The notes under the pieces are model-generated. The model did not search any database, had not been told where the DNA came from, and saw only the letters and a list, made by a program, of their open reading frames with translations. Shown here one piece after another: positions 655-11,280 of a stretch of DNA of 14,218 bases (positions within the stretch are counted from its first letter, which is position 1; each line of letters starts with the position of its first letter). A program made the translations under genes and the position numbers. The DNA comes from Chromatiales bacterium (GTDB lineage: Bacteria; Pseudomonadota; Gammaproteobacteria; Thiohalospirales; Thiohalospiraceae), in NCBI GenBank assembly GCA_026984715.1, contig JALSRO010000203.1:1-14218 (forward strand). The letters run 5' to 3'.

Positions 655-1017
655 ATGCGTGAAGAGATGCTCAGTTCGATACTAAAGGAACTCAATGGTA
701 CCTCGGCCGATATCGAGGCCTCGGCCGTGATATCCACCGATGGCTTGATGATGTCCAGCGTTCTGCCGGCAGAGCTGGATGAGGACCGGATGGGCGCCAT
801 GAGTGCCGCCATGCTCTCCCTTGGAGACCGCACCTCCCAGGAGCTGGCCCGCGGAACCCTGGAGCAGACCCTAATCAAGGGGGACAAGGGGTACATCCTG
901 ATGACCTATGCCGGGCCGGATGCCGTAATCACCGTGCTGGCAAAACCACAGGCCAAGCTGGGATTGATCTTCCTGGACGTGAAACGCGCCGCAGAGAGCA
1001 TCAGCAAACTGATCTGA
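655..1017 (+). CDS. Roadblock/LC7 domain protein
   Basis: A 120-residue single-domain protein of the roadblock/LC7 (dynein light chain, MglB-like) fold. Features seen: an N-terminal helix (REEMLSSILKELNG), then the typical sensor-like strand ASAVISTDGLMMSSVLP (residues 23-39), a long helix with MGAMSAAMLSLGDRTSQEL, then strands LEQTLIKGDKGYILMTYAG and AVITVLAKPQAKLGLIFLD, and a C-terminal helix. This is the standard order and length of the family. Such proteins dimerise and usually act as regulators or scaffolds, classically as activators of Ras-like GTPases such as MglA. No GTPase gene is present in this window. AGGAG at 641-645 sits 9 nt before ATG and fixes the start. It converges on the MamK-like actin gene, and a link to that cytoskeleton is inferred from position only. 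Confidence 0.85.
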   Translation: MREEMLSSILKELNGTSADIEASAVISTDGLMMSSVLPAELDEDRMGAMSAAMLSLGDRTSQELARGTLEQTLIKGDKGYILMTYAGPDAVITVLAKPQAKLGLIFLDVKRAAESISKLI

Positions 1018-1210: not shown

Positions 1211-2239
1211 CTACATATCCATCCAGTATTCGTAGGGCATGTCCTTGGCAAGCTCCAGCCCGCCCCGGGCCCCGGCATACAACGGATCGTCCACGACGGT
1301 TACGTTGCAGGGGCCCATCTCGGAGAGAGCCTCCATCAGGTAGGAATCGATACCGGCTATCTGACTGCACCCTCCCGCCAGTATGATGTTGTTACGCACC
1401 TGATCCTGATACTCCGGATCGAAGCGCGCTATCATGTCCATGGCGGTCTCGGCAATGGCGGGGAGAATACTCTCACAGGCTCGCCGCATCTCGTTGGTGA
1501 TATCGTGAACCACGAGACGCCCCTCGACCCGAACCTCCACCTCGACCTGGGTGAGAGAATCGCCCACGAAACCATACTCCTCCTTGAAGGCGCGGATGAT
1601 GTTCATGTTGAAATCGGCATCGGGATAACGCTCGGTCAGCAGGCCAAGCAGCTGTTCATCGATATAGTCGCCTGCGGTGGTCAGGCTGCGCTGGTCGTCC
1701 ACGCTCGGCATGGTACCGTGCATGATACAGAAATCGGTGGTCCCCGCACCCATGTCGATAATCATGGCATTGTCCAGTGCCCCCATGCCGTAGGCAACGG
1801 CAAAAGGTTCGGAAACGACTATCAACTTTTCGGCATAGTCGGATATGGCCTCCCGAATAGCCTGCTTGTTGACCTTGAGCGCTTCGGCAGGAACCCCCAC
1901 GGCGGCAAAGATCTTCTGCCGCGGTCGAGGTCCGACCAGATCGATCAGATGGCCAATCAGCTCGGCAACCGACTCCTCGTCCTTCTCGGTTCCCGACTTG
2001 ATGACCCCTTGGGCGAGTGGCCTGACCACATCCAGCGAGAGGCGATGCTCATTCACTTCGTCACCGAACAGCACCCGGTCCCCAAGCATCTTGCGTGCGA
2101 CGAAATCCTTTGGCCAGCCAACCAGGCTCTGTACCCAGTCACGTTTTCCGTTGCTGGCCGCAATGGCCGAGCGGGATGTGCCCAGATCGATTCCGATCCG
2201 CAGCGCCTTGTCCTGCTGGCTCACCTTAACTTTTGCCAT
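1211..2239 (-). CDS. MamK-family bacterial actin
   Basis: A 342-residue actin-fold ATPase expected to polymerise into cytoplasmic filaments. Actin signatures appear in order: phosphate-1 loop IDLGTS (17-22), a catalytic-type glutamate in VVSEPFAVAYG (E144, matching MamK E143), phosphate-2 loop DMGAGTTD (162-169) and adenosine loop ILAGG (286-290). Similarity to the magnetosome protein MamK runs along the whole length, for example VGWPKD, FVGDSLT, EYQDQV and the C-terminal DMPYEYW. It is clearly closer to MamK than to MreB, ParM or FtsA. The start is fixed by GGAG 8 nt upstream. The ATG overlaps the end of the amidase gene by 14 bp, implying translational coupling. No other magnetosome genes are near, so this is probably a non-magnetosome MamK-like actin. 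Its cargo is unknown. Confidence 0.88.
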   Translation of the reverse strand: MAKVKVSQQDKALRIGIDLGTSRSAIAASNGKRDWVQSLVGWPKDFVARKMLGDRVLFGDEVNEHRLSLDVVRPLAQGVIKSGTEKDEESVAELIGHLIDLVGPRPRQKIFAAVGVPAEALKVNKQAIREAISDYAEKLIVVSEPFAVAYGMGALDNAMIIDMGAGTTDFCIMHGTMPSVDDQRSLTTAGDYIDEQLLGLLTERYPDADFNMNIIRAFKEEYGFVGDSLTQVEVEVRVEGRLVVHDITNEMRRACESILPAIAETAMDMIARFDPEYQDQVRNNIILAGGCSQIAGIDSYLMEALSEMGPCNVTVVDDPLYAGARGGLELAKDMPYEYWMDM

Positions 2240-3464
2240 AGGTTGTACTCCATTGCCGGGGCGGCCGCCCCTGTTGCCGACCTGACTGCTTCAGGTAGGA
2301 GAGAATGCCCCTCTCCAGGGCTCCTGCTATTTTATCGCGATAGGCAGGTTTTGCCAGACGGGCCTCCTCCTCAGTATTGCTGATACAGGTCACCTCGGCA
2401 AGCACACTAGTGGTCTCCGCCCCCAAAAGTACCACAAAGGGGGCAGTCTTGATCCCCACATTGACGATATTGCGGTTACTGCGATGCAACGTCCGGTAGA
2501 CGTTTCTCTGAATGTGTGCCGCCAACCGCCGGGACTCCTGCTGTTTCAGCGTGTCGCTCAGCCCGGCGATCAACTCACCGAACTCTGCCACCATGTAGTC
2601 CGAACGGCGGTTCTCTTGCTCCGCCGCCTTCAGACTGTGCTCATCCGCGGGCGGACCGAAATAGTAGGTCTCCACGATGGTCATCGGATCGTTCGGAATG
2701 GTGTTCAGATGAATCGAGATCAGGAGATCGGAACTGTTCTCCCTGGCAAACTCAACCCGGTGCTTGAGCGACAGCGTGACATCCGAGTCCCGCGTCATGA
2801 ATACCCGCAACCCCTCCCTGCGAACCAGTCTCTCATAGAGCAGACGGGCAATCTCCAGGGTGATATCCTTCTCCAACATCCCGCTTGGGCCAATGGCGCC
2901 CGGATCTTCCCCTCCATGCCCCGGATCGATGACGATAGTACGCACCTCCAGTCCAAACAGATCTGCCAGTGCTACCGCCGGCCGATCGAGCAACACACGA
3001 TAGTCGCTGGCGCTGGAGATGCCGCCATCCGGCACCGTCCACTCATCGGGCCCGTCGCTACCGTCCAGTGGGGCAACAGCACCCCTGCCCGAGAGAAAAG
3101 CCCGTCTGTGAGGAGCCATCGGAGTGGAAACCGGCATCTCTTGCGAAGAGGTCACGCCGGCATTGGCATCATCGATCAGAGGTGGCAGGCCGCTGTTCCA
3201 ACCCGCAGCTGCAATTTCGACGGCCGCGCTCTTCCCCGGCGGGAGGGAATCGGCACCACCTGGAAAAACCGAATGGGCACCACTCCCCATGAGCGGCAGG
3301 ATCACTACCAATCCTGCAACGCGCACCCAACGCCCCATTCTCTGGCGCCGCTGGCCTCGCTGCTGCAGGGAGAGGAGTTTCTCCGCGCTCAGATTGCTGC
3401 GGTAGACATCATGCAGGATGGTTCTCTTGAACGCCTGCTGCCCGGTTTGCCCGTTGTTTCCCAT
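2226..3464 (-). CDS. Membrane-anchored N-acetylmuramoyl-L-alanine amidase (Amidase_3)
   Basis: 412 residues. A zinc amidase that cleaves the bond between MurNAc and L-Ala in peptidoglycan. A cytoplasmic, basic N-terminus (1-46) is followed by one transmembrane helix (about 47-66) and a low-complexity periplasmic linker (67-170). The catalytic domain (175-392) starts at TIVIDPGHGGEDPG. Zinc ligands are H183, E198 (in MLEKD) and H252 (in SIHLN), and the catalytic glutamate is E357 (in LAEVTCISN), so the enzyme looks active. There is no clear AMIN domain, unlike AmiB or AmiC, so localisation probably depends on the N-terminus or a partner. ATG at 3464 has only a weak upstream GGACGG; Met43 is an alternative start that would remove most of the cytoplasmic tail. 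First gene of an operon with the overlapping MamK-like actin. The 46-residue cytoplasmic tail could contact a filament (inference). Confidence 0.9.
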   Translation of the reverse strand: MGNNGQTGQQAFKRTILHDVYRSNLSAEKLLSLQQRGQRRQRMGRWVRVAGLVVILPLMGSGAHSVFPGGADSLPPGKSAAVEIAAAGWNSGLPPLIDDANAGVTSSQEMPVSTPMAPHRRAFLSGRGAVAPLDGSDGPDEWTVPDGGISSASDYRVLLDRPAVALADLFGLEVRTIVIDPGHGGEDPGAIGPSGMLEKDITLEIARLLYERLVRREGLRVFMTRDSDVTLSLKHRVEFARENSSDLLISIHLNTIPNDPMTIVETYYFGPPADEHSLKAAEQENRRSDYMVAEFGELIAGLSDTLKQQESRRLAAHIQRNVYRTLHRSNRNIVNVGIKTAPFVVLLGAETTSVLAEVTCISNTEEEARLAKPAYRDKIAGALERGILSYLKQSGRQQGRPPRQWSTTYGKS

Positions 3465-5897: not shown

Positions 5898-7448
5898 TCA
5901 GACAGAGGGGTTCCCAGGGTGGGTCGGGGTTCTGCCCAGCAGCTGACCAAATGCCCTGCCCTGCTCCGCTGTATCTCTCCTCGCCCCCTGTTCACTGCGC
6001 TGGAGTATCGCGCCGATGGTCTCGATACGGGCCTCAATATCCTCTTCGAGCTCTTGGGCGAACCGTGGATTTGCTTTCAACACCTTTTCCACTGCGTTCC
6101 GGGCCAGCTCGACCACCTGGACATCGCTGGCGGCATAGACACTGACCAGATTCCTGCTGCGCCTCAGGGCAGCCACGATGCCGATCAGGTCACCAGGCTC
6201 CGCACTCCCCATCCCCTGTTCACGGCCTTCGCGATCCGTGACATACCGCTGTGCAGTTCCAGTGAGTATGACAGAGAAGTCGTTGCACTCCACCCCAGCA
6301 GCCAGAATCTGCTCGCCGGCGCCGAACCGCTGAATACGCGCCCCACGGGTGATCTCCTCCATTGCGTGGCGGGAGAGACTGAACACTTCCAGCTCCAGCA
6401 GACGTTCCACCAACTCCTCCGGCTTGACCAGATCATCACTGCCCAGATTCATCTCCGAACCGGCAAAGTGGTAGAGCTGGTAGTCCTCATAGGGGAACAC
6501 GATGTTGTAGCGTTTGGCCGCATACCAAGCGCGGGTCAGAAAGGCATCGCGGATCTCGTCCACCTTGCCGTAGTCGTCGAAACAGAGCAGCGCCTCATAG
6601 GCCCCCGCATCATCCGCCAGCTCGCGCAGAATCACCCTGGGGGCGGGCTCCTCGAGTACTCCGGGCGTGGCTTGCGCCGCCTCCAGCAGCGCCTTGCGCA
6701 CCAGATTGGGGGGGTGCTCCTCCCAGAACCGGATGATGACGCGCTCCATATGCACCGGCGAGGGGTGGCTGTAGTTACGGAAAGTGTCGCGCGCCAGCAC
6801 CGAGTTCGGGATCACCAGCAGATCGTTCTCCAGAGTCCTGAGGGTGACCGAGTACCAGTTGACCGTCACCACCTGTCCGGTCACCTCGCCGGTCCTGAGC
6901 CAGTCCCCCACCTTGAACTGGCGCGCCGAGATCAGGGTGATGCCGGCGAACAGCCCGCCCAGGGTATCCTGCAGCGCCAGTCCCAATACGATGGAACCGA
7001 CCCCCAGCGCCGCCAGCATCTTGCCCAGGTCTATCCCCCATACCGACGACATCACAAAGGCGACGCCGAGCAGAATGAAGAACAGCCGGGCGATGTTCAG
7101 CACCAGGGAGGGGATGCGGCTCTGCCACCCCTCTCCCGCGCTGTGGGAGGACCAGAACAGGTTGAAGGCGGACAGTGCCAGATAGATGAGGCTGATCCAG
7201 AAGACAGAGGCGGCGATGCGCACCCAGACGTTGCCGTCGGGTAGCTCCAGGACGTTGGTCAGCAGCAGCCACACCACCAGGCTGGGAAGCACAAAATACA
7301 GGGTACTCCCCAGCGAGCTGCGCGATCTGTCCCCGCCACTCTCGATGCGGGAGAGCATCTCCCCGAACAGGATGGTCAGCAGCGGAAAGCCGATCAGTAG
7401 CCCCACCCCCCAGGCGAGCCAGCTCTCCTGCGGCATCCAGTCAGGCAT
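5898..7448 (-). CDS. MscS-family channel with C-terminal cyclic-nucleotide-binding domain
   Basis: 516 residues, with the architecture of the bacterial cyclic-nucleotide-gated (bCNG) branch of the MscS superfamily. Hydrophobic segments lie at about 10-30, 49-68, 75-98 and 113-137, followed by the pore helix 145-173 (ALGVGSIVLGLALQDTLGG), typical of MscS TM3. The MscS cytoplasmic beta domain follows (FKVGDWLRTGEVTGQV and VIPNSVLARDTFRNYS). A cNMP-type domain occupies about 353-482 (GEQILAAGVECNDFSVILTG then PGDLIGIVAAL). The phosphate-binding cassette is non-canonical: the usual FGE is IGI, and the conserved Arg before the final strand is shifted or replaced (SRNLVSV). Start: ATG at 7448 overlaps the cyclase stop by 8 bp and has AAGGAG upstream. 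The longer open frame to 7667 is out-of-frame overlap with the cyclase gene. It is the likely effector of the co-encoded cyclase-like receptor. Confidence 0.87.
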   Translation of the reverse strand: MPDWMPQESWLAWGVGLLIGFPLLTILFGEMLSRIESGGDRSRSSLGSTLYFVLPSLVVWLLLTNVLELPDGNVWVRIAASVFWISLIYLALSAFNLFWSSHSAGEGWQSRIPSLVLNIARLFFILLGVAFVMSSVWGIDLGKMLAALGVGSIVLGLALQDTLGGLFAGITLISARQFKVGDWLRTGEVTGQVVTVNWYSVTLRTLENDLLVIPNSVLARDTFRNYSHPSPVHMERVIIRFWEEHPPNLVRKALLEAAQATPGVLEEPAPRVILRELADDAGAYEALLCFDDYGKVDEIRDAFLTRAWYAAKRYNIVFPYEDYQLYHFAGSEMNLGSDDLVKPEELVERLLELEVFSLSRHAMEEITRGARIQRFGAGEQILAAGVECNDFSVILTGTAQRYVTDREGREQGMGSAEPGDLIGIVAALRRSRNLVSVYAASDVQVVELARNAVEKVLKANPRFAQELEEDIEARIETIGAILQRSEQGARRDTAEQGRAFGQLLGRTPTHPGNPSV

Positions 7449-9576
7449 CGGCCGGCTCCTTGCCCACTGGGACCAAGCACCAGACCTGCATGCTCTCCCC
7501 CCCCTTGATATGCACCTGTCCGGCCTCGCGGAACCCCTCCCGGTCATGCAGTTGGGAGTACATCTGGCCGGAGATACAGATGGAACCCGGCGCCGCGACG
7601 GAGCAGATTTCACTGGCCAGATCCACTGTGCTGCCCCAGATGTCATAGGTGAAACGATGCCGCCCAATCACCCCGGCAAGTACGGTTCCGGAGTGGATGC
7701 CAACCCGCAACTCGAGTTCCAACCCACACTCCTGACCGATGCGCCGCACGCTGCTCATCATCTCGCGGGCGAACTCCAGCGCCCGCTTGTCGTGATCCAG
7801 CCTCGGGGTGAGCAGGCCGCAAGCAGCAATGTAGTCATCTCCGACGGTCTTGATCTTGTCCACACCGTGGGCCTCGGCAGCGTCATCCAGCTCGGCAATC
7901 AGGTGGTTGAGGCGCGCGATGGAATCTGCAGGGTCCTCGTCCTCCCCAGGGCTGCTGAGACCGGTCAGCATAGTGACAATCACCGACACATTGGGAATGC
8001 GATCGACGATCTGCTGCTCTCCCGCCTTCATGCGCTGCGCCACCGATTCCGGCAGGATGCTATGCAGCAGCAGGGCGTTCTCCTGCTCCTTGTCCTCGAT
8101 GATCTGCTTCTGCTGGCGGATCCCCTCCACCATGGTGTTGAATGAATCCGCCAGCTCACCGAACTCGTCAAGGCTGTCCACCTTCACCCGAACCTCGGAC
8201 TCCCCGCTCCCAACCCGGCGCATCCCGGCCACCAGCGCGTGGATCGGACGGGTGACATAGCTTGCCAGCAGCAGCGCCAGCAGGGTGATCACCACCCCGA
8301 GGATGGTGGCCGATACCATCACGTGACGCCGGAACCGGTCGATGGGGCGATTCACCTCGGCGATATCCATCTCCGAAAGGATCACCCAGTCCATACCGCG
8401 CACCCGAAGGGGAGCATAGGCACTCATCACCGGTACACCGCGGTAGTCGATCACCTCCTTGGTACCGGTTTTGCCACTCAGGGCCAGATCCACCGTTTCG
8501 CCGTGCACCGGCTGGAACAGGATGGTGGTATCGTTCTTCTCGATGCGCCGGATCTCGTCGGCGGGCATCCCGATTCCACGCAGCATCTGCAGATAGCGTT
8601 CACGATCCTGGATCAGAAAGCGTGAGTCGGAGCGCATCAGGTGATTGCGCCCCACCAGATAGACCTCGCCAGTCTCACCCATACCGCTGCGCTCCCACTC
8701 GCGGTTGCTGGTCATGACGTTGTTCAGCTCATCGCTGGGGACCTGCAGAGCCAGGATCCCGGCGATCTCCTTCCCGTCGAATACCGTCACTGCCACAAAG
8801 GCCGCCGGTGCTCCATAGGAAGGGACATAGATATCGTAATCCTGAAACCGGACCCGGCCCCGCTCCCTGGTGCGCATAACCTCCTTCACCAGCCGGGCGA
8901 AGTTGCTGGAAGCGTAAGGGCCGTGCAGCAGACTGGTGGCGAAATCGGTCTCCTTGAACACCGAGTAGATGACGTTGCCGCTCTCGGGATCGATCAGAAA
9001 CAGATCGTAATAACCGAACTTCTTTATCAGACTGCGCAGACTCTCGTGATAGCGCTCATGCACCTGGGCATAGTAACCGCTGTCCCCCGTAGCCCGAATC
9101 AGCTCATCCTTGCTCCCCACCTGATTGGGATTGGCGGCGATGTAGTGGTACTGAAGCCATACTGCAGCGGCACCGTCTGGAAGGTAGTGTTTCACCTCCG
9201 GCTCACCACCCATGCGGTCCTTCAGACGTGGAATGAACTCCTTGCGATAATAGTCGGCAAGCTGCCGCCGTTGCGCATCCGATACGGATTCACGTTCGGC
9301 CAGATTGTAGGCAGTACGAAACTCGTTCAGTGCCTCGATGATGGTGCGGTTCTCCGCGAAGGCCAGCACTTGATCATGGATATCGGAGAAGTAGGCCTGT
9401 ACCTGCTGGGTCTTGGCCGCCCGCAATGTCGTAAGCTCATTGTAGATTGCCTCATTGAGGGCATCTCTGGCGGATCGGAACCCCTGATAGCCAACCACTG
9501 CAATACTGGCAAAGCTGGCAAGCAACAGCAGGATCACCAGCTTGGACCGAATACTCAAACGCCCGCTGAAACTCAT
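7441..9576 (-). CDS. Cache-HAMP class III nucleotide cyclase-like receptor
   Basis: 711 residues. TM1 (about 12-30) and a large periplasmic Cache-like sensor (31-415) lead to TM2 (about 418-440), a HAMP domain (441-492, TRPIHALVAGMRRV), a coiled-coil/transducer segment (493-525, with LLLHSILPESVAQRMKAGE) and a class III cyclase domain (526-711). Adenine-selecting residues are present: K576 in KIKTVGD and D645 in YDIWG. One metal Asp is present (D580). However, the first metal Asp position (FADIVGF in active enzymes) is M536 in VIVTMLTGL, and the transition-state Asn and Arg of VNxASR are D652 and E656 in VDLASE. The domain is therefore predicted inactive as a homodimer. ATG at 9576 is preferred because GGGAG lies 8 nt upstream; the frame extends 15 residues further without such support. 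Operon with the cNMP-domain channel. Confidence 0.85.
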   Translation of the reverse strand: MSFSGRLSIRSKLVILLLLASFASIAVVGYQGFRSARDALNEAIYNELTTLRAAKTQQVQAYFSDIHDQVLAFAENRTIIEALNEFRTAYNLAERESVSDAQRRQLADYYRKEFIPRLKDRMGGEPEVKHYLPDGAAAVWLQYHYIAANPNQVGSKDELIRATGDSGYYAQVHERYHESLRSLIKKFGYYDLFLIDPESGNVIYSVFKETDFATSLLHGPYASSNFARLVKEVMRTRERGRVRFQDYDIYVPSYGAPAAFVAVTVFDGKEIAGILALQVPSDELNNVMTSNREWERSGMGETGEVYLVGRNHLMRSDSRFLIQDRERYLQMLRGIGMPADEIRRIEKNDTTILFQPVHGETVDLALSGKTGTKEVIDYRGVPVMSAYAPLRVRGMDWVILSEMDIAEVNRPIDRFRRHVMVSATILGVVITLLALLLASYVTRPIHALVAGMRRVGSGESEVRVKVDSLDEFGELADSFNTMVEGIRQQKQIIEDKEQENALLLHSILPESVAQRMKAGEQQIVDRIPNVSVIVTMLTGLSSPGEDEDPADSIARLNHLIAELDDAAEAHGVDKIKTVGDDYIAACGLLTPRLDHDKRALEFAREMMSSVRRIGQECGLELELRVGIHSGTVLAGVIGRHRFTYDIWGSTVDLASEICSVAAPGSICISGQMYSQLHDREGFREAGQVHIKGGESMQVWCLVPVGKEPADA

Positions 9577-9619
9577 CCGATACTCCCTTCGCAACCATAA
9601 AGCCCCTGCTCCCGATGCC

Positions 9620-9647
9620 ATTATACAGAAACAGCGTCACGGCTGAA
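9620..9647 (-). promoter_or_regulatory. Probable promoter of the cyclase-channel operon
   Basis: On the minus strand there is a perfect -10 TATAAT (9620-9625) with TTCAGC (9642-9647) 16 bp upstream as a weak -35. Transcription would begin about 35 nt before the preferred ATG. The -35 lies in the left arm of an inverted pair, CGGCTGAAGG (9640-9649) and CCTCCAGCCG (9684-9693), which could be a regulatory site between the two divergent operons. Confidence 0.5.
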
Positions 9648-9760: not shown

Positions 9761-10825
9761 ATGCAGGACAACCGCATTCGATTACATTTTTCTATAGCGA
9801 TATTTTTACTGTTCATCATCCCTCTATGCAGTGTGAGCGCAGCACCCGATGGCGCCAGGCTGTTCGCCATGAACTGTGCAGCGTGTCATGGCGACCGCGG
9901 AAACGGCGGGATCGGCATCCCTCTCTCCCTGCCAGATTTTCTCGGCAGCGTCACCGATGAATTTCTCTTCCAGACCATCCGGCACGGACGGCCGGGGCGT
10001 ATCATGCCATCCTTCCGGCATCTCTCCAATGAACAGATCGATGCCATCGTCAGCTACATCCGCAACCTGACACCGGTAAAGGTGAATCTGTTACCGGAGG
10101 GGGCAACGGGAGACCCTGAAAAAGGGCGGGATGTCTTCGCCAGAAAATGTGCCCGTTGCCACGGTCCGTTGGGGAAAGGTGGAGCAGGCACGGGAGTAAA
10201 CTTCACCCGTCTGCACAACCTGCCCATCGTTGCGCCGGGACTGAACAATCCCGGATTTCTCGCCGCCGCTTCGGATCGGATAATCAGGACCACCCTCCTT
10301 CGGGGGCGCAGTAAGACACCCATGCTGCCCGCCGCAAAAATGGGGCTCACTATCCAGGATGTGGATGATGTGGTCAGCTACATACGAAGTTTCGAGAAGG
10401 GGTTTCAGCAATCGAAGAATTCCGCTACCCGCTCCATCGAACCAACCCTTCTGACGAGCTCGAAGCTCCCCTTCGATGCAACAGTCGAAAAGATAAAACG
10501 GGCCATATCCGCCCAGCGATTGCGCATCATCCGGAGCCACTCGCTGGATGACGGACTGGTCCCCCAAGGGAGCGAAAACAAGAAACGGCAGGTGATCTTC
10601 TTTGGCAATCTTCACCAGATAAACACTCTGCTCGCAATCGATCCGAGAATGGGACTCTTTCTTCCCAATCGTATCACCATAATGGAACAGAGTGACGGCA
10701 AAGTGCTGGTTGCGGCAGTCAATCCGCTGCGCTTCGGCCAGCTTTTCAACAACGCCAATCTAGAGTACACCGCCAGAGAGTTGCACAATACCTATTCCAC
10801 CATTCTCGGGGAGATCACGGAATGA
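9761..10825 (+). CDS. Exported dihaem cytochrome c with C-terminal DUF302 domain
   Basis: 354 residues. The signal peptide (about 1-27, hydrophobic core FSIAIFLLFIIPLC, ending VSA-A) sends it to the periplasm. Two class I cytochrome c domains follow. The first has CAACH (39-43) with probable axial Met82 (RIMPSF). The second has CARCH (130-134) with probable axial Met188 (KTPMLP). From about 233 the protein continues as a DUF302 domain (KLPFDATVEKIKRAI, KRQVIFFGN and LVAAVNPLRFG). Both haems appear complete, so electron transfer is likely. The DUF302 function is not established. The start has AAGG 8-9 nt upstream. The stop overlaps the next gene as ATGA, and that gene also encodes a DUF302 protein, so the two probably work together. 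Confidence 0.88.
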   Translation: MQDNRIRLHFSIAIFLLFIIPLCSVSAAPDGARLFAMNCAACHGDRGNGGIGIPLSLPDFLGSVTDEFLFQTIRHGRPGRIMPSFRHLSNEQIDAIVSYIRNLTPVKVNLLPEGATGDPEKGRDVFARKCARCHGPLGKGGAGTGVNFTRLHNLPIVAPGLNNPGFLAAASDRIIRTTLLRGRSKTPMLPAAKMGLTIQDVDDVVSYIRSFEKGFQQSKNSATRSIEPTLLTSSKLPFDATVEKIKRAISAQRLRIIRSHSLDDGLVPQGSENKKRQVIFFGNLHQINTLLAIDPRMGLFLPNRITIMEQSDGKVLVAAVNPLRFGQLFNNANLEYTARELHNTYSTILGEITE

Positions 10826-11280
10826 AAACAGGACCTCTTCCACGCCACCTGCTCTCTTTCCTGCTGCTGATGCTGATTTCCCTGCCGCTGCATGCAGATC
10901 ACCTCATCATGGTCCGCGCCCACAAGCCCCTTGCTGCCACACTGGGCCAGCTGAGGCAGGCGATTCAGAAACAGGGGTATACCGTCTCCCGCGTGGATAT
11001 GGTCAACATCGGCCTGCTCGGTATGGGCTATACGAGCAACAAATACCGGGCAGTGTTTTTCGGCAAAGCCGGAGAGCTCGACGAGCTTGCCCAAAAATAT
11101 CCGCGACTCGTCCCCTACCTGCCACTGCGCATCGCCGTCTTCGCCGAAGGCGACAGCACCCTGCTGGTCACCATCAACCCTTCCACCTACGGCAGCTTTC
11201 TTCCAGCAGAAAAACCCGCAGAGCTCCTGAACCGTTGGCAGAAGGATATCGAAGAGATTCTTTCCCACGTATCCCGATAG
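10822..11280 (+). CDS. Exported DUF302 protein
   Basis: 152 residues. A signal peptide (about 1-25, LLSFLLLMLISLPLHA-D) is followed by a single DUF302 domain. The domain aligns by eye with the C-terminal part of the upstream cytochrome: a first helix LAATLGQLRQAIQKQGYTV, a strand NKYRAVFFGK, proline-rich LVPYLPLRIAVFAEGDSTLLVTINPS, and a final helix ELLNRWQKDIEEIL. No cysteine or haem motif is present in the mature part. It is translationally coupled to the cytochrome gene (ATGA overlap). It probably pairs with the cytochrome-borne DUF302 domain in the periplasm; the ligand or substrate is unknown. Confidence 0.85.
   Translation: MKTGPLPRHLLSFLLLMLISLPLHADHLIMVRAHKPLAATLGQLRQAIQKQGYTVSRVDMVNIGLLGMGYTSNKYRAVFFGKAGELDELAQKYPRLVPYLPLRIAVFAEGDSTLLVTINPSTYGSFLPAEKPAELLNRWQKDIEEILSHVSR

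Follow-up and report, generated by a model that had tools for sequence, protein, structure and literature searches.

A MamK-family actin gene overlaps the gene of a membrane-anchored peptidoglycan amidase that carries a conserved, putative docking motif in its cytoplasmic tail

The window analysed here is the whole of a 14,218-nucleotide stretch of contig JALSRO010000203.1 from a Chromatiales bacterium, and it holds on its reverse strand two overlapping genes, one for a peptidoglycan amidase and one for an actin (Table 1). The actin ATG lies inside the final codons of the amidase gene, and a GGAG Shine–Dalgarno-like stretch within that gene ends 8 nt upstream of the ATG, an arrangement in which the two proteins are likely to be translationally coupled. 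The first-pass annotation of this DNA had described the 14-bp overlap, a basic cytoplasmic tail on the amidase, a single membrane helix, a long linker and an intact zinc site, together with the lack of an AMIN domain and of other mam genes, and the description holds. The overlap follows from the ORF coordinates; the tail comprises about 48 residues with a net charge of +8; hydropathy gives one hydrophobic stretch; and linker residues 62–159 are modelled by AF2 with a pLDDT below 50. In a profile scan of ten window proteins, the amidase had no AMIN match and no mam family passed besides the MamK match itself. Elsewhere in the window, the reverse strand at 5898–9621 carries a dCache-HAMP-cyclase gene (7441–9621) that overlaps the gene of an MscS-type channel with a cyclic-nucleotide-binding domain (5898–7667; both as longest ORFs), possibly a receptor cyclase and cyclic-nucleotide-gated channel pair. 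On the forward strand, 9761–11280 encodes a protein in which a multi-domain cytochrome c is joined to DUF302 and then, with a 4-bp overlap, a second DUF302-like protein.

Table 1. Coordinates of the actin–amidase gene pair and its features within the window
Feature	Position	Strand	Evidence
MamK-family actin, amidase-linked group, 342 aa	1211..2239	-	ORF, NCBIfam profile, PDB relative, tree
Membrane-anchored Amidase_3 peptidoglycan amidase, 412 aa	2226..3464	-	ORF, profile, alignment, predicted fold
14-bp overlap, amidase end/actin start	2226..2239	-	ORF coordinates; translational coupling likely (predicted)
Conserved cytoplasmic motif KRTILHDVYRSNLSA, amidase residues 13–27, proposed actin-docking peptide	3384..3428	-	
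Single membrane helix, amidase residues ~47–66	3267..3326	-	Hydropathy; AF2 helix 27–60
Amidase_3 catalytic domain including blocking-helix Glu284 (AmiA Glu167 equivalent)	2301..2936	-	

The Amidase_3 domain spans amidase residues 177–388 in the profile scan, its sequence is AmiA/AmiB-like by alignment, and the best structural match to the predicted fold is E. coli AmiA (8c2o, E = 1.1e-17); across tail residues 1–30, AF2 confidence is only 57–68. His183, Glu198 and His252 align with the zinc residues His65, Glu80 and His133 of E. coli AmiA (residue numbering from excerpts of PMC10268282) and are 100% conserved among 90 distinct amidases, each of at least 320 aa, that are paired with an actin as described below, which suggests selection for enzyme activity. 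Also invariant in the 90 are Asn254, in place of AmiA Asp135, and Glu284, which aligns with the blocking-helix residue Glu167. Given this invariance of the blocking-helix and zinc-site residues, the paired amidase is predicted to be autoinhibited and to need an activator. In the excerpted text of PMC10268282, mutation of AmiA Glu167 gives a modest relief of autoinhibition, and a blocking helix whose glutamate binds zinc is described for E. coli AmiC as well. AmiC has the Amidase_3 domain in common with the paired amidases but possesses an AMIN domain, whereas the latter have a cytoplasmic motif and a membrane anchor.

MamK-type actins are best known from magnetic bacteria. The window actin scores 402.6 bits on the NCBIfam MamK profile (NF040964), barely passing the cut-off of 400, compared with 469 bits for a cluster-encoded MamK; it lies below the NCBIfam MreB cut-offs (85.1 and 72.6 bits versus 293 or 365.75), and its closest solved relative in a PDB search is MamK 5ljw (E = 1.7e-85). 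Judged by MamK family membership and conserved nucleotide-site motifs, it would polymerise in the cytoplasm. A quick IQ-TREE tree was built from 83 of the 131 rows, keeping every second amidase-linked row plus that of the window. All 49 amidase-linked actins in it fall into a single group (SH-aLRT 100), outside which the 15 magnetosome actin rows lie; support for the choice of its nearest neighbouring group is not high (84). The earlier label "MamK-like" needs qualifying, since the actin groups apart from magnetosome MamK. Eleven positions are specific to the amidase-linked clade (W35, F46, G83, V91, V114, K122, A131, L139, F170, I172 and Q196), and we regard these as candidate docking sites only.

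Conservation of the pair was assessed from the actin side, with a scan profile made from an alignment of 22 actins, out of 120 listed, that had been picked without regard to their neighbours. An actin-only scan of GTDB genomes gave 106 relatives, and each of the 80 loci kept (the best 80 of the 106) has an amidase gene immediately upstream in the same orientation. Taken with longest-ORF starts, which overstate the overlap in some loci, the two genes overlap in 77 loci and lie 12, 19 and 41 bp apart in the other three; in L067, with the 12-bp gap, the amidase is broken into pieces. By record titles the 80 loci include 24 from Nitrospirota, 25 from Thermodesulfobacteriota and 17 from Pseudomonadota, and the remainder come from Rhodothermota (2), Bacteroidota (2), Rokuibacteriota (1) and further groups. 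Four loci titled "Deltaproteobacteria bacterium" are Myxococcota in the taxonomy table, and five have no phylum there, two of these being titled Aminicenantes. Because most pair loci come from MAGs, lone odd taxa may be misbinned.

Taxonomic samples, in which a MamK-like actin was defined by E ≤ 1e-60, gave such actins in 6 of the 185 genomes sampled from the window's class (its own included), in 30 of 245 Nitrospirota genomes and in 13 of 247 genomes of the phylum of G205 (Desulfobulbaceae). By identity to the window actin they form a close set (57% or more) and a distant set (48% or less), and the regions around 46 of them were retrieved (16 close, 30 distant). An amidase gene overlaps the actin gene in every one of the 16 close-actin regions, which comprise 12 new regions and four that repeat actins of the 80, versus none of the 30 distant ones in the upstream sequence retrieved, which covers roughly 0.7 to 8.9 kb and is shorter at contig ends. 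Paired-type amidases scoring above 370 bits occur in 17 of the 245 Nitrospirota genomes, exactly the 17 with an actin of at least 57% identity, and the next-best Nitrospirota amidase reaches 281 bits on the same profile. Co-occurrence of actin and amidase is far beyond chance, and the adjacency in related genomes on which the first-pass annotation had made its reading depend is conserved in 80 of 80 loci (the best 80 of 106) and in 12 of 12 new regions. Within the window's order, the actin is present in 7 of 12 genomes, some of them incomplete (73–100%), namely in seven of eight from its own genus and none of four from sister genera, as if it had been gained by the genus or lost by the sister genera.

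Other amidases accompany the pair in most pair genomes checked: a second amidase match was also counted in 15 of the 17 Nitrospirota pair genomes, and a search with the Amidase_3 family gave at least two matches in 19 of 21 pair genomes. The pair is thus probably not the main separation amidase. In the window's own MAG, the sole other Amidase_3 match is weak (31.5 bits against a cut-off of 27); an amidase with a 451–472-residue frame is also present in close relatives (five of the six genomes G185–G190). Across 75 loci, only the actin and amidase families recur widely (greedy gene picking dropped the actin in seven loci from these counts), which leaves the actin as the sole shared nearby candidate partner. 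The next neighbour family, which includes a Nitrospirota receiver gene, occurs in 24 of the 75, and the remainder in at most eight. A Roadblock/LC7 gene (655–1017, forward strand, convergent with the actin gene) was considered as a third partner and set aside, as only the window's own copy matched among the locus ORFs.

The distant actins bear on a different reading, in which the pair belongs to a magnetosome or other organelle system and the actin is a true MamK. By shared neighbour families, 15 of the 30 distant-actin regions were assigned to magnetosome clusters, and at least 15 look so; the remaining 15 actins lie elsewhere or are ambiguous, with L161, L162 and L166 sharing some magnetosome-cluster families. 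Profile checks covered two clusters: in L145, MamM passes its cut-off and MamP-, MamB- and MamQ-like genes fall short of theirs; in L153, a MamE-like gene scores under its cut-off. The 15 magnetosome-cluster actins are 40–45% identical to the window actin. The organelle reading draws on the NCBIfam call of MamK, 2.6 bits above the cut-off. Against it, MamM passes its cut-off in none of 52 pair genomes, compared with 11 of 11 controls taken from the genomes of these clusters, so that a magnetosome island, raised earlier as a possibility elsewhere in the genome, is marked by MamM neither in the window's own genome (a MAG of 86.5% completeness) nor in 51 other pair genomes. The magnetochrome family PF18509, searched without a positive control, has no match above cut-off in the 50 pair genomes reached via loci (one falls under it) or in the window's own; the MamM result is for this reason the one relied on. 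With the actin also in a separate tree group, we reject the organelle reading as close to refuted and extremely improbable. The window actin and magnetosome MamK (5ljw/5jyg) have in common an actin fold by homology, the NCBIfam subfamily and nucleotide motifs, but differ in that the former overlaps an amidase gene, groups separately and resides in genomes lacking MamM.

Two further contexts of MamK-like actins were seen among the distant regions. In L163, L164 and L165, two MamK-like actins stand in tandem, separated by a small gene (about 160 aa in L163 and 189 aa in L164), and the L164 gene list contains no gene that looks magnetosome-like; these loci represent another uncharacterised MamK-like context. 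In L157, L158, L159 and L167, outside the loci assigned to magnetosome clusters, MamK-like actins (48% identical) are preceded by two conserved genes, one of about 117 aa and a larger one (median 657 aa).

The amidase tail contains a 15-residue island, [KR]xxILRGVYEDNLRI, with unconserved sequence on either side, and this conserved cytoplasmic island in actin-paired amidases is new here. Among the 90 distinct paired amidases, mean entropy at residues 13–27 is 1.45 bits, about that of the catalytic domain (1.39), compared with 3.31 at residues 1–12, 3.16 at residues 28–46, 2.80 in the membrane helix and 3.02 in the linker. All 87 distinct tails matching the pattern, which itself requires Asn or Ser at that position, have the motif asparagine. 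When the first 70 residues were searched, a strict pattern matched 86 of 96 paired amidases and a wider one 91 of 96, or 92 of 96 with L064, where ILRGVYEEN begins at residue 74 of the longest ORF, outside the searched stretch. The motif is missing in L057, L079 and L156, which are cut by, or start less than 70 bp from, a contig end, and L178 has the variant IHKKIFLDN. In Nitrospirota, the wider pattern is present in 16 of 17 paired amidases, the exception (L203) having the same variant as L178, and in none of the 13 that are unpaired, including L208, which is truncated at a contig end. AMIN domains were found in all eight unpaired amidases scanned (barely above cut-off in L208) and in none of three paired amidases scanned, the window's and two others. 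The possibility that other client proteins share the motif was dismissed, as none of the non-amidase ORFs among the 7474 ORFs of the scanned loci matches, while a similar pattern matches 72 amidase ORFs.

Restriction of the motif to actin-paired amidases in the loci examined favours a physical link, and contact with the actin best explains why actin-coupled amidases should keep such an island in the part predicted to be cytoplasmic. The motif could instead bind another cytoplasmic protein or the membrane. The operon might also be conserved without any contact, the two proteins serving a shared process (growth, shape or division) and the motif serving membrane insertion or another partner; gene overlap often means co-expression only, and in Nitrospirota a receiver-TM-SPOR protein is a possible alternative partner. 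We consider such an arrangement rather improbable, since the actin is the only widely shared nearby candidate across the 75 loci and AMIN amidases lack the motif.

Actin contact could also work in the reverse direction, the amidase tail acting chiefly as a tether or nucleator that anchors the filament along the envelope, with something else as cargo. RodZ, which docks on MreB in a like manner, has such an anatomy, a conserved cytoplasmic peptide preceding one membrane helix. PilN of type IV pili is not an enzyme, its partner PilM is FtsA-like, and the sequence of the PilN motif is unlike that of the amidase tail. PilN and PilM nonetheless share with the present pair a bitopic protein, a conserved cytoplasmic N-terminal peptide ahead of one membrane helix and an actin-fold partner, and docking of the PilN N-terminus in PilM provides a precedent for a peptide that docks on an actin-like protein (excerpts of PMC5805733). 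A pure anchor, however, would have no need of the zinc residues that are invariant in the 90 paired amidases, and we judge the tethering role unlikely, if less so than an operon without contact.

Of 23 Nitrospirota loci that extend 1300 bp or more downstream, 18 have a gene for a receiver-TM-SPOR protein after the actin gene and five lack it there, and none of 46 non-Nitrospirota loci with room for it has one beside the pair; receiver and SPOR domains were both found in five of five downstream proteins scanned. This family (L034, L060, L076 and other Nitrospirota loci) is unusual in combining a cytoplasmic receiver with a SPOR domain that binds glycan. Among the matches listed, long receiver-TM-SPOR matches, in one or two pieces, occur in 14 of the 17 Nitrospirota pair genomes. 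They also occur, by match and not by domain scan, in at least nine of 228 Nitrospirota genomes without the pair, the matches listed including G372, G266, G395, G408 and G426 (above 250 bits) and, more weakly, G410, G317, G383 and G257. Being confined beside the pair to Nitrospirota and present in pairless genomes too, the protein was rejected as a core part and is better seen as an add-on or optional partner. SPOR domains recognise amidase-stripped glycan (excerpts of PMC6895207), and the gene in this capacity supports a link to amidase products.

The reading we favour, and hold to be probable, is that the filament docks and places an autoinhibited amidase as a dedicated transmembrane cytoskeleton–hydrolase unit. 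Its nearest precedents are PilM–PilN for docking, MreBH–LytE for the direction of a hydrolase by an actin and FtsEX–EnvC for control of amidases across the membrane; MreB–RodZ is a further parallel. The actin would polymerise in the cytoplasm, and an inner-membrane anchor would hold the amidase so that its catalytic domain lies outside and its predicted cytoplasmic helix, bearing the conserved island, docks on the actin. The filament could thereby gather the amidase, whose blocking helix is predicted to keep it inactive, at particular places on the envelope such as the septum or a pole, and may gate its activation; once placed, the enzyme would strip stem peptides off peptidoglycan. In Nitrospirota, the neighbouring receiver-TM-SPOR protein could sense denuded glycan and relay this back into the cell. 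The cytoplasmic position predicted for the conserved peptide suggests that an internal filament decides the site of wall cutting. The first-pass proposal of a filament that places or controls a wall hydrolase is in part supported by the conserved adjacency and the retained tail motif; binding and positioning themselves we infer.

In B. subtilis, the MreB-family actin MreBH localises the wall hydrolase LytE, which is secreted, has no cytoplasmic tail, is not in an operon with MreBH and is of a hydrolase type unlike the amidase. Both systems pair an actin homologue with a wall hydrolase, positioning being a proposal for the present one. FtsEX-EnvC works through an ABC transporter and a LytM activator, and the amidases that it serves, AmiA/B, are without a cytoplasmic tail. 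The present pair would resemble it in placing a blocking-helix amidase under cytoplasmic, nucleotide-driven control, as described for FtsEX-EnvC (excerpts of PMC10268282). No description of a MamK-family actin and amidase operon was found in the open-access literature searched, and the word amidase is absent from the available main text of three MamK papers (PMC2818848, PMC12748827 and PMC10653835). More tentatively, and with somewhat less than even confidence, we propose a widespread and apparently undescribed system in which a MamK-family actin steers a bitopic autoinhibited amidase through a docking peptide, with a denuded-glycan feedback loop through receiver-TM-SPOR in Nitrospirota, as an inside-to-outside control of wall cutting that is parallel to FtsEX-EnvC and distinct from MreB.

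If the favoured reading is true, ILRGVYEDN would be a specific peptide through which a filament could exert transmembrane control over a wall hydrolase, and cytoskeleton-directed wall cutting would become testable in a two-gene system present in several phyla. MamK-type actins would gain a role outside magnetosomes, which might hint at the origins of the magnetosome actin.
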